In this document: positions 1 through 15,271 of the stretch, piece after piece
Layout: the number at the start of each line of letters is the position of its first letter
Numbering within the stretch: position 1 is the first letter of the stretch
Source of the DNA: Treponema sp.
GTDB lineage: Bacteria > Spirochaetota > Spirochaetia > Treponematales > Breznakiellaceae
Assembly (NCBI GenBank): GCA_031278025.1
Contig: JAITLF010000162.1
Location: forward strand, 1 to 15,271
Length of the DNA: 15,271 nt
Direction: 5' to 3'
Position numbers and translations under genes: made by a program
Notes under the pieces: generated by a model
Database searches by the model: none
What the model was told of the DNA's origin: nothing
What the model saw: the letters and a program-made list of their open reading frames with translations, nothing else

Positions 1-63
1 GGGGGGTAACTTATCGCCCGTTTTTCGCGGCGGGGGGGCCGGCATCTTCAACCTATCAATCAT
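1..63 (-). CDS. Partial unknown ORF, 5' end only, cut by contig edge
   Basis: Only the first codons are present, running off the left edge with no stop. Two ATG codons lie in tandem (66-64 and 63-61 on the minus strand). The second sits 6 nt after an AGGAG ribosome binding site (74-70), against 3 nt for the first, so the second is the likelier start. The visible peptide begins M-I-D-R-L-K-M-P-A-P-P-P and is too short to assign. It is preceded by a consensus promoter and belongs to the cassette that recurs at the right end of the window, where the corresponding peptide begins M-V-D. The matching leader and first codons suggest two members of one gene family or repeated element. The Pro/Gly-rich codons near the edge may include sequencing error. 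Confidence 0.45.
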   Translation of the reverse strand, partial: MIDRLKMPAPPPRKTGDKLPP

Positions 64-129
64 CATTCGCTCCTCTTTTCGGTAATGCGCTAGTACTTAT
101 TATAGCGCGGAACCCCCAAAAAACAATAC
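55..129 (-). repeat. 75-bp promoter/RBS/start cassette, copy A
   Basis: This segment aligns without gaps to 15131-15205 on the plus strand, with 66 of 75 positions identical by eye. It holds the -35 and -10 elements, a leader containing TAAGTACTAGCGCATTACCG, the ribosome binding site, two ATG codons and the next two codons. From the base after the -10 element to the end only two positions differ. The two copies are in inverted orientation and face out of the contig. Confidence 0.8.
99..126 (-). promoter_or_regulatory. Sigma-70-type promoter of the left-edge cassette
   Basis: Reading the minus strand, a TTGTTT -35 element (126-121) is followed by a 16-nt spacer and a perfect TATAAT -10 element (104-99). 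An AGGAG ribosome binding site and tandem ATG codons follow about 25 nt downstream. The same elements with the same 16-nt spacing occur in the right-edge cassette (TTGTTT...TATAGT), which supports this being a real promoter. Confidence 0.7.
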
Positions 130-8163: not shown

Positions 8164-8342
8164 CCTTCATGGCGCTTCACCGCCCGCCATCCCCCCGCGC
8201 CGCCTCCGCGCGCCGCGGACCTGCCTCCGCGGTGGGCAACCCTGGGTTTTTTGATCCCACCCCTGGGTTTCTTGATCCCAACCCTTTCTTTTCTGATCGC
8301 ACATCGCTCTTTCCAAGCCGCAGGCCCCTGCCTCCGGCGGTA

Positions 8343-8564
8343 CGGGAGGCGCCTCCCGCGTCCGCGTAGGCGCCTCCCGTGATCGCGTAGGCGCCTCCCG
8401 TGATCGCGTAGGCGCCTACCGTGATCGCGTAGGCGCCTCCCGTGATCGCGTAGGCGCCTCCCGTGATCGCGTAGGCGCCTCCCGTGATCGCGTAGGCGCC
8501 TCCCGCGTCCGCGTAGGCGCCTCCCGTGATCGCGTAGGCGCCTACCGTGATCGCGTAGGCGCCT
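8343..8564. repeat. Homogeneous 21-bp tandem repeat block (GGCGCC/GATC units)
   Basis: Nine complete 21-bp units start at 8364, 8385, 8406, 8427, 8448, 8469, 8490, 8511 and 8532. A divergent unit precedes them at 8343 and a partial one follows at 8553. The consensus is GCGTAGGCGCCTCCCG followed by TGATC. Variants are CTACC in place of CTCCC (units at 8406 and 8532) and CGTCC in place of TGATC (8343 and 8490). Every unit carries the palindrome GGCGCC, and eight carry GATC. Near-identity points to recent expansion or homogenisation. Confidence 0.92.
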
Positions 8565-8747
8565 GCGCCGTTACGGGGCCGCTCTCCGCGATGCGCGGAC
8601 CGCTCTCTCCCGCAGGCGCGGACCCTTCTCCCGCGTCCGCGGACCGCTCTTTACGTCTTGTAACCCTGGGTTTTTTGATCGCAAAACTACTTTTGCCGCG
8701 CGCAAAACTACTTTTGCTTCTCGTAAACCTGGGTTTACGACCCGTAC

Positions 8748-8873
8748 GCCGCGCTTTCCGGCTCCCGCGCCGCGCTTTCCGGCTCCCGCGCCGCGCTTTT
8801 CGGCTCCCGCGCCGCGCTTTTCGGCTCCCGCGCCGCGCTTTACGACCCGTGCACCGGGCTTTTCAAGCCGCAC
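8748..8873. repeat. Second 21-bp tandem block (CGCGCTTT units)
   Basis: Six units start at 8748, 8769, 8790, 8811, 8832 and 8853. The first four are nearly identical, with consensus GCCGCGCTTTCCGGCTCCCG plus C; two have TTTTCG in place of TTTCCG. The last two are diverged. The block ends about 60 nt before the FGGY kinase start. Read on the plus strand it would encode a seven-residue repeat (RRAFRLP), but that lies upstream of the better-supported GTG start. Confidence 0.85.
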
Positions 8874-8935
8874 ACCGGGCGCTCAAACTTTCCCCCCTGG
8901 CCGTGAGTTGGGTATATTCAACCTGGAGGCAAAGG

Positions 8936-10405
8936 GTGCTGTTGGTTATTGATATTGGGACTTCTACGTTTAAGGCGGGTGCGGCGCGGTATGACGGGGC
9001 GGGAGGGCGTTTCGTGAGCCTGCCTTTGGGGGGCGGACGCAGCCCCAGCGCCGAGCCGGGCCGGTGGCTCCGGGCTTTTGAGGATGCGGCTGCCCGGCTT
9101 GGCGCCCCGTGTCTTGCGGCGGTGGAAGGGATAGTTATCAGCGGCAACGGGCCGACTTTGACGCCGGTTACCGGGACGCCTGGCTGTTCCGGCGGGCGCC
9201 TGTCCCTGCCGGCGGCTCCCGCCCGGCTCTGGCTGGACCGCCGGGCCGAAGAGGAGGCCCGGATTGTATCCCGCGTCATGGGCGGCTTTGTGGACCCCGG
9301 CTTCTTCCTCCCCAAGGCCCTGGCGGTGAAGAACCGCGAAAGGGCGCTCTACGAAAAGACCCGGTGGTTTCTGTCCGCCCCCGAATACTTAGCCTGCGCC
9401 CTGACCGGGGAAGCGCGGACGGTGATCCCCTCCCAGGGGTTTGAAACGTGGTACTGGAACGATAGCGCCCTTGCGGCGCTGGGGCTCGACACGGAGAAGT
9501 TCCCCCCCTTTGTAACGCCGGGGGCCGTCATCGGGCTGGTAACGCCGGCGGCGGCGGCCCGGTTCGGCTTCAAAACAACCGTGAGGGTGATTGCCGGCGG
9601 CCCCGATTTCTTTGCCGCCATCCTGGGGACCGGGGCGGTTAGTCCGGGCCGCTCCTGCGACCGGTCCGGGACCTCCGAGGGGATCAACCTCTGCTCCGCC
9701 CGGCGGATTGACGACCGCCGGCTCATGTGCTACGGCCATCCGGTTAAGCCGTACTGGAATCTTTCCGGGATCGTTTCTACCACCGGGGAGGCCCTGGCCT
9801 GGGGCCGGGAACTTTTGGGCATGGCCGGCTTGCCCTACGCCGCGTTCTTCGGCCTGGCGGAATCCGCCGCTGCCGGCGCGGGGGGGCTCGTCTTTCTGCC
9901 CTACCTGGCCGGGGAGCGGGCGCCTATCTGGGACCCTCATGCGCGGGGGGTGTTCTTTGGGCTGGGCCTGGGGACCGGCAGGGGAGAGGCCGCCCGTGCA
10001 ATTGCCGAGGGGATATGTTTCGCCATCCGGGACGTGATCGCTGTAATGGAAGAAGACGGCGCGCCGGTGGAAGACCTGCGGGTTACGGGCAAGCCCGGAG
10101 AAAGCGCCTTTCTCAACCAGCTCAAGGCGGATGTTACGGGCCGTCCCGTGCTGGTTCCCCGGCTCCGGGCGGCGGAAGCGGCCCTTCCTCAGACGGAAGC
10201 GGCCCTTCCTCAGGCGGAATTGCTGGGGCTCCTTGCCCTGGGAGCCGCCGCCCTGGGGGCGTATGCCTCGGCGGAGGAAGCCGTCCGGGACCTGGTAGGC
10301 GTTGCACAGACCTTTGTCCCGCGCGGGGCAGTCAAGCCGGTCTATGATGATGCCTTTGGAACCTACCGGGAAACCTACCGGGCGCTCAAACCGCTCTTTA
10401 GATAG
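8936..10405 (+). CDS. FGGY-family carbohydrate kinase (xylulokinase-like)
   Basis: This kinase (489 aa from the GTG start) has the FGGY two-domain fold and transfers phosphate from ATP to a sugar or polyol. The N-terminal phosphate-binding motif is VIDIGTSTFKAG. The second-domain motif AGGPDFFAAILGTGAV carries the likely catalytic Asp 224, followed by DRSGTSEGIN. YLAGERAPIWDPHARGVFFGLGLG is the FGGY C-terminal signature, as in xylulokinases. The GTG at 8936 is chosen because GGAGG (8925-8929) lies 6 nt upstream and the protein then begins exactly at the family N terminus with normal length. The open frame continues upstream through the repeat array but is probably not translated. A tandem 21-bp duplication at 10172-10213 adds residues near 413-426. 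The substrate cannot be fixed from sequence; gluconate, xylulose or similar are options. Confidence 0.88.
   Translation: MLLVIDIGTSTFKAGAARYDGAGGRFVSLPLGGGRSPSAEPGRWLRAFEDAAARLGAPCLAAVEGIVISGNGPTLTPVTGTPGCSGGRLSLPAAPARLWLDRRAEEEARIVSRVMGGFVDPGFFLPKALAVKNRERALYEKTRWFLSAPEYLACALTGEARTVIPSQGFETWYWNDSALAALGLDTEKFPPFVTPGAVIGLVTPAAAARFGFKTTVRVIAGGPDFFAAILGTGAVSPGRSCDRSGTSEGINLCSARRIDDRRLMCYGHPVKPYWNLSGIVSTTGEALAWGRELLGMAGLPYAAFFGLAESAAAGAGGLVFLPYLAGERAPIWDPHARGVFFGLGLGTGRGEAARAIAEGICFAIRDVIAVMEEDGAPVEDLRVTGKPGESAFLNQLKADVTGRPVLVPRLRAAEAALPQTEAALPQAELLGLLALGAAALGAYASAEEAVRDLVGVAQTFVPRGAVKPVYDDAFGTYRETYRALKPLFR
10172..10213 (+). repeat. In-frame 21-bp tandem duplication within the FGGY kinase
   Basis: The unit CGGAAGCGGCCCTTCCTCAG plus one base occurs twice in tandem (10172-10192 and 10193-10213), differing only at the first base, and is followed by the start of a third copy (GCGGAA). 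It encodes AEAALPQ then TEAALPQ, just before the conserved 'ELLGLLALGAAALGAY' helix. The unit length preserves the reading frame. Confidence 0.9.
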
Positions 10406-14785: not shown

Positions 14786-14851
14786 TCCACGGACAGATGC
14801 GCCGCCGGAACCGGGCAGCCAGACGGTGTCGTCTCGCGATTCCGGAATGCG

Positions 14852-15064
14852 CTCCGTCCTCTACCTGAAAGATTCTCCCCCGGAAAACCGGAACTGGCCG
14901 CCGGGGAATTGCCTCTTCGGTGCCGCGCGGTTGTATGCCAAACGCGTAGCTTTTCGGAGTTTCGTCAAAGTCCGGTACTTTTGCCTGAGAGTTTTCCGCC
15001 CTGCCCCTTCGGCGACCGTTAAGCCCCGCGCGTTTTCCCCGCGGGCCGCCGGTTCTCTCCCGGA
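14852..15064 (-). ncRNA. Tandem glycine riboswitch upstream of gcvT
   Basis: Reading the minus strand, aptamer 1 begins with TCCGGGAGAG (15064-15055), contains GCCGAAGGGGCA (15013-15002) and CTCTCAGGCAAAAG (14991-14978), and closes with CCGGA (14975-14971), which pairs with the opening TCCGG. Aptamer 2 has ACTCCG (14960-14955) pairing with CGGAG (14856-14852), the conserved ACCGAAGAGGCAA (14921-14909) and CTTTCAGGTAGAGGAC (14871-14856). These core strings are the established glycine riboswitch signature. The position just before gcvT and after a promoter gives the expected regulation of glycine cleavage by glycine. Aptamer 2 departs from consensus at several core positions. Confidence 0.93.
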
Positions 15065-15085
15065 CCCGTCATTCGAATAAAGGCC

Positions 15086-15130: not shown

Positions 15131-15196
15131 GTATTGTTTTTTGGTGGGTTCGTAGTATAGTAAGTACTAGCGCATTACCGAAAAAAGGAGCGAATG

Positions 15197-15205
<9 letters not shown>
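15131..15205 (+). repeat. 75-bp promoter/RBS/start cassette, copy B
   Basis: This is the partner of the left-edge cassette (55-129, minus strand), identical at 66 of 75 positions with no gaps. Most differences fall in the promoter spacer. The leader, ribosome binding site and ATGATG with the following two codons are nearly unchanged. It faces out of the contig on the right. Confidence 0.8.
15134..15161 (+). promoter_or_regulatory. Sigma-70-type promoter of the right-edge cassette
   Basis: TTGTTT (15134-15139) is followed by a 16-nt spacer and TATAGT (15156-15161). The spacing is the same as in the left-edge copy, where the -10 is a perfect TATAAT. Together with the gcv promoter it forms a compact divergent regulatory region. 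Confidence 0.65.

Positions 15206-15271
<66 letters not shown>

Follow-up and report, generated by a model that had tools for sequence, protein, structure and literature searches.

A cassette at both ends of one contig

The 15,271-nucleotide stretch of DNA analysed here, hereafter the window, begins and ends in what appears to be the same promoter, leader and start codon, each copy pointing outward off the contig. This arrangement raises the question of why an assembly should break twice at one cassette, and of what such a cassette might do.

The repeat itself is clear. As an earlier note on this DNA had claimed, positions 129-55 of the minus strand align without gaps to positions 15131-15205 of the plus strand, with 66 of 75 bases identical; the runner-up match to the left copy within the window reaches 34 of 75. 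The core 16-mer TACTAGCGCATTACCG, with up to three mismatches allowed, has only two sites in the window (0.07 expected; two or more sites in 1 of 200 shuffles), and a repeat search recovered the cassette pair, at 85 nt and 85%, as the longest inverted repeat of the window. Gapless likeness between the upstream flanks of the two copies ends about 10 bases past the repeat. An Rfam search of the window gave no match at the cassette.

Both copies contain the parts that had been assigned to them, namely a -35-like TTGTTT, a -10 element, a 20-base leader, a Shine–Dalgarno (SD) sequence and tandem ATGs. As read from the sequence, the left copy, which extends through the next codons (55..129, minus strand), has its -35-like element at 121..126, in a promoter core common to relatives, its -10 TATAAT at 99..104 and its ribosome-binding site GAGGAG at 70..75. 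Its predicted leader ORF starts as MMIDRLKMPAPPPRKTGDKLPP and runs off the contig (1..66, minus strand), reaching GDKLPP and then six Cs at the contig edge (1..6, minus strand); these Cs are preceded by TTA and lie 60 nt after the first ATG, where relatives have their C tract (57-73 nt). The right copy (15131..15205, plus strand) has its -35-like element at 15134..15139, its -10 TATAGT at 15156..15161 and its ribosome-binding site AAGGAG at 15185..15190; its predicted leader ORF start (MMVDL; 15194..15209, plus strand) is cut earlier, by a 62-base poly-G tail (G16 T G45; 15210..15271, plus strand). Conservation had been described as strongest from after the -10 through the start codons. This holds for the leader, but the first 14 bases (GTATTGTTTTTTGG) are equally conserved, and the variable part of the pair is the -35/-10 spacer together with part of the -10.

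A cassette family in related genomes

NCBIfam names for ten window proteins include rpsF, ssb, dnaB, gcvPB, gcvPA and gcvT. The window GcvPB shares 68% identity with the GcvPB of Treponema sp. isolate Cd354_bin68 (L001), and the 195 genomes of this isolate's family formed the comparison set. Within this set the closest DnaB proteins are those of genomes G029 at 98%, G030 at 94% and G028 at 94% (residues 1-385); those of G043 (69%) and G092 (61%) are more distant from the window. The source is likely a Treponema-like gut spirochaete, and we infer a termite-gut origin.

Related genomes bear out the suggestion of a multi-copy family, with cassettes of like build. A promoter pattern gave 7 matches in G028 and 9 in G029, with none for the reversed control and none in G030, G122 or G082. 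A sequence-only model, R1, built from 12 rows (two of them from the window) and run against the 195 family genomes at E<=0.001, returned 32 matches in 5 genomes: 12 in G028, 8 in G029, 8 in G043, 3 in G030 and 1 in G092; 10 of these matches are rows of the model itself and 22 are not. The layout in relatives is a promoter, a leader, an SD sequence, a short ORF, often a C tract, and then a paralogous lipoprotein gene.

The genes behind the cassette are homologous as well, with 13 of the 32 matches lying directly upstream, on the same strand, of one predicted lipoprotein family. One member, behind the cassette of G028:C308, is 954 aa long and carries FTMNGGTISGN-like repeats; its N-terminal 200 residues match 14 of the 195 genomes (10 matches in G028, 9 in G029, 6 in G043, 6 in G138 and fewer in the others), and the protein family is therefore wider than the cassette, which was found in five. 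G092 has one cassette and no lipoprotein match. Some homologues are named 'right-handed parallel beta-helix repeat-containing protein' by NCBI, and others share the N-terminus with domains such as PF03781 or PF15902 (70 proteins); a Pfam search of three G028 lipoprotein pieces gave no match. By analogy with these relatives, the window's own copies may also drive lipoprotein genes. At one locus (L178, in G028:C158; 1951-4769) the lipoprotein lies in two overlapping open frames, so that this copy looks frame-shifted or misassembled.

The earlier note had linked the breaks at both window ends to the presence of the cassette, and the same link is found in relatives, where 19 of 30 copies have a contig end at most 700 nt downstream, against 4 of 30 on the upstream side; C295 and C321, not included among these 30, continue for more than 3 kb downstream. 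In relatives there is good support for the family, for the genes behind it and for its association with contig ends. Homopolymers, which the earlier note did not raise any more than it did the short leader ORF or the C tract, are a second reason for contig breaks, beside the multi-copy nature of the cassette. The window ends outward in six Cs on the left and in a 62-base run of Gs with one T on the right; on three relative contigs (G028:C332, G028:C140 and G030:C72) an outward G-rich run forms the contig end at the place expected for the start of the C tract, a paralogue, G030:C237, has 19 Cs at the tract place, and contig-end tails also occur on G029:C241 and G043:C37. The right-hand poly-G of the window begins 16 nt after the first ATG, ahead of any visible tract place. 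We considered this run as the cassette's own tract and rejected the idea, given the same kind of G-rich tail on relative contigs; it is most likely an artefact tail of sequencing or assembly. In two-colour Illumina sequencing, cycles without signal are read as G.

Leader reading frames and C tracts

Relatives have short leader ORFs behind the ATG, for example MSGCLDRRFFFSGVFYATLELSLPPPP in G043, MSNRLKARFLSSVSKILNFTPPPP in G028, MSGCLTTVSSFSNLSSPNKTLPPPPPP in G030 and MFGLLKQQFFCSSFSNTTVKLLPPPPP in G092, and their C tracts, where present, start 57-73 nt after it. A short leader ORF ending in Lys-x-Leu-Pro-Pro with a C run at this distance would mark a member of the family; the left end of the window reads GDKLPP with six Cs at 60 nt, where the contig stops. 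Across the 32 copies, the run at this place has at least 12 Cs (12-21) in 8 and 3-8 Cs in 15, a G-rich contig tail stands there in 3, and the contig is cut before it in 6. Among the 23 readable copies, that is, 8 have a C run of at least 12 and 15 have no C run longer than 8; the window's left copy has its six Cs at the contig edge.

Long C tracts are also found elsewhere. Distinct tracts of at least 12 Cs number 14 in G028, 15 in G029 and 12 in G043, and among the 30 of these 41 that were inspected, some follow an SD-preceded start codon or precede a lipobox-like gene, others prove to be contig tails, and several belong to neither group. It was considered whether long C tracts might be limited to the cassette family, and this was ruled out: such tracts occur in 177 of the 195 family genomes, and so are not special to the cassette. 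As a separate observation, other predicted lipoprotein genes, without a match to the cassette model, are preceded by long C tracts at a distance of 110-380 nt (G028:C24, C36, C42 and C71; G029:C37; G043:C101), and the arrangement of leader and tract may therefore be wider than the cassette family.

Thirteen leaders, including three without a long tract (G028:C174, C308 and C158), were read in all three tract phases. Eight of the 13 have one phase in which the leader ORF extends over 64-81 codons and its stop codon overlaps the start of the gene, and three others have one phase that stays open and joins the gene in frame; in the remaining two, G043:C42 and G028:C158, every phase ends after 21 and 24 codons. 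For the 11 open leaders this leaves 22 phases, of which 14 stop at 24-41 codons and 8 run on. Six of the seven leaders with a tract of at least 12 Cs and an ORF open to the tract are in a short phase as assembled, although assembled tract lengths are untrustworthy. The overlap of stop and start adds no evidence; it simply follows from gene starts that read ATGA.

In 8 leaders, the most C-biased 80 nt downstream of the tract count 21-38 C against 3-10 G, in windows picked for this bias; such a composition suits Rho-binding sites, which are cytosine-rich (PMC7446863). Terminator hairpins between tract and gene gave no consistent signal (z from 1.5 to -2.9). Several leaders (G028:C295, G029:C223 and G043:C192) have a palindrome of the type CTGTTCCAAAAC...GTTTTGGAACAG between the promoter and the lipoprotein gene.

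A proposed phase-variable switch

Our principal reading, to which we give roughly even weight, is that each of the two 75-bp copies forms the 5' end of a different member of the cassette family, and that the cassette serves as a phase-variable switch of predicted surface-lipoprotein genes. In the mechanism that we infer, slippage of the C tract would shift the frame of the leader ORF, alter how far leader translation reaches, and in this way switch the lipoprotein gene. In the short phases the ribosome would halt soon after the tract and leave C-rich, G-poor RNA bare; in one phase it would carry on as far as the lipoprotein start codon. The off state could come about through Rho-type termination in the bare RNA, a role for Rho being suggested by the C-rich, G-poor sequence, or through loss of translational coupling, and leader translation would be the controlling step in both versions.

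A broader reading is more tentative, and we hold it with somewhat less than even confidence: gut treponemes may run a genome-wide random switchboard, in which one promoter and leader ORF with a slippery C tract is used over and over, and tract length sets read-through to the next gene, so that whole modular families of surface lipoproteins are turned on or off with the protein sequence untouched. If this is true, likely insect-gut symbionts would routinely use phase variation, which is known chiefly from work on pathogens, and its moving part would be a leader ORF in place of the promoter or of the gene that is switched. The fragmentation of such genomes at cassette loci in short-read assemblies would then be explained in part.

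The proposed switch is a variant of homopolymer phase variation, and it can be compared with several known systems. It shares a variable homopolymer in the mRNA 5' leader with a leader repeat system read by a small RNA; there, the small RNA pairs with the repeat, whereas the proposed reader here is the ribosome in the leader ORF. In intra-ORF homopolymer systems, the tract lies within the switched gene, whereas in the cassette it lies in a leader ORF ahead of the gene, so that the lipoprotein sequence itself would stay intact except in phases that join both frames. The likeness with such tracts inside a switched ORF is the change of frame through slippage; systems of this kind are named in PMC7864442.

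Two further comparisons concern the position of the tract and the nature of the off state. In Treponema pallidum, the tpr genes, tp0126 and tprL are described as having promoter poly-G tracts, for which a change of length is proposed to alter expression, and the start site of tprL is given as the fourth base after its poly-G tract (PMC7864442). Both cases concern a spirochaete with a G or C homopolymer adjoining a surface-protein gene family. However, the T. pallidum tract as described there lies in the promoter, whereas that of the cassette lies past the leader ATG (by 57-73 nt in relatives and 60 nt in the window's left copy), well downstream of the -10; in neither the relatives nor the window's left copy is a tract placed within the promoter, before the transcription start. 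In the flagellar switch of Clostridioides difficile, a DNA inversion flips the 5' leader and Rho terminates transcription there, Rho-binding sites being cytosine-rich (PMC7446863). A phase-variable 5' leader with an off state through Rho termination would be common to both, but the C. difficile leader, in this account, flips by inversion and the C tract of the cassette would slip. Among the titles and abstract beginnings listed for the open-licence literature, none describes a C tract placed in a leader ORF of its own, which is a weak absence.

The alternative that survives best, though we consider it unlikely, is that a strong promoter and leader have been duplicated before paralogous lipoprotein genes with no switching at all, the C tracts being neutral low-complexity sequence. 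The 15 of 23 readable copies without a C run longer than 8 fit this alternative, as does the general commonness of C tracts in the family genomes. It is countered by tracts of 12-24 Cs within a narrow range of distances from a start codon that has an SD sequence before it and by a pre-tract leader peptide that is alike across genomes. The reading frames speak on both sides. In 11 of the 13 leaders, the post-tract frame that meets or joins the gene is open, yet the chance of this in shuffled sequence is 0.14-0.80 per leader, often near what chance would give and unremarkable singly; jointly, all seven leader types are open in a useful frame, with a chance of about 2e-4 when multiplied over the seven, one leader per type having been picked post hoc.

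Relation of the window copies to the family

The principal reading also requires that the window's copies be members of the relatives' family. They could instead be a repeat family of their own lineage, like the relatives' cassettes only as generic promoters and start sites are alike, a view that we regard as rather improbable. It draws on the exact leader, which has no match in any collection searched: exact leader patterns gave 0 matches in viral_contigs and genome_contigs, and phage and plasmid collections gave no match to the window leader. A 15-mer with 3 mismatches had 150 matches in G001 against 119 for the control, which is no signal. Set against a separate lineage is the single blastn match of the left copy among the 195 family genomes, to G029:C408 (34 nt at 85%; E=2e-4, reckoned for one genome); this contig, too, breaks off directly after the start codon. 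The other copies in relatives came to light through the promoter pattern and the model.

Profile searches bear on the same question. With a profile of ten G028 and G029 copies, the left end of the window scored 20.1 bits (E=3.2e-4), ahead of everything else in the window and in 100 shuffles, and the right end fell within the shuffles and was not significant; G029:C408 is one of these ten copies and had itself been found with the window as query. In an unrestricted scan with C408 removed, the left end still came first, at 5.8 bits, but was not significant (E=7.4), in keeping with a separate lineage. A targeted test, in which the profile contained neither the window nor C408, gave a different result for the left end, whose score was reached by 3 of 2000 self-shuffles with 9 copies and by 0 of 2000 with 18 copies, some of the 18 having come from a model with window rows. 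The right end was reached by 6 of 2000 self-shuffles with 9 copies and had no match from the 18-copy profile, a miss that again fits a lineage of its own. The shuffle test of each end is fair because the place was named beforehand. The parts also stand in the same order and the contigs break in the same place, with TTA and a C run 60 nt after the ATG; this last combination occurred in 7 of 300 shuffled windows, for a pattern chosen afterwards.

Judged by sequence, the left end probably belongs to the relatives' cassette family. Membership of the right end rests mainly on its identity to the left; the right alone lacks significance. Membership of the window cassette as a whole is likely, not proven.

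Other explanations of the cassette

If the copies do belong to the family, the C tract might still act without slipping. It encodes proline in every frame, and ribosomes stall at three or more prolines (PMC4176338), so that a proline-stalling attenuator, in which stalling at proline runs (through EF-P or the state of Pro-tRNA) sets expression, can be imagined for leader peptides with PPPP or longer. We think this quite improbable, as the copies with a broken tract, G028:C174 and G028:C308, keep an open leader frame and lose most of the prolines.

The earlier note had left the choice between a paralogous gene family and an insertion-type element of which the cassette forms one end. The gene family is upheld by the 13 of 32 copies upstream of one lipoprotein family; the insertion-type element has little in its favour, and we consider it very unlikely, even though copies lie in unrelated flanks and the orthologous sites in G028, G029 and G030 are without the cassette. 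The contig continues for at least 700 nt past 13 copies; 9 of these lead into that one family and 1 into another lipoprotein (G029:C351), and no mobile gene was found within the repeated unit. The remaining three are G029:C204, G043:C189 and G029:C111; the last is the only copy with a transposase-like ORF behind it, which looks like an IS insertion.

A chimeric join of one window end to a copy of the other, which the homopolymers at both ends and the 62-base G tail on the right might suggest, is the least credible explanation, given that the copies differ at 9 of 75 bases and that many diverged copies exist in relatives.

Other features of the window

Three further observations concern the genes between the two copies. 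Upstream of gcvT, a glycine riboswitch-like match to RF03166 lies at 14850-15076 on the minus strand, with 58.1 bits, below the gathering score of 110, and E=4e-10. Between malQ and an ORF of the FGGY-type kinase there are 21-bp direct-repeat arrays at 8309-8606 and 8713-8901 (plus strand); the second lies inside the N-terminal part of the called ORF 8591-10405, whose true start codon may be further in. Finally, the contig ends 334 nt upstream of rpsF in the window, and 295-400 nt upstream of it in G029, G030 and G028 too (L157, L158 and L159). The sequence upstream of rpsF at the contig end differs in each of these three loci, and this region may be a recurrent place for variable insertions.
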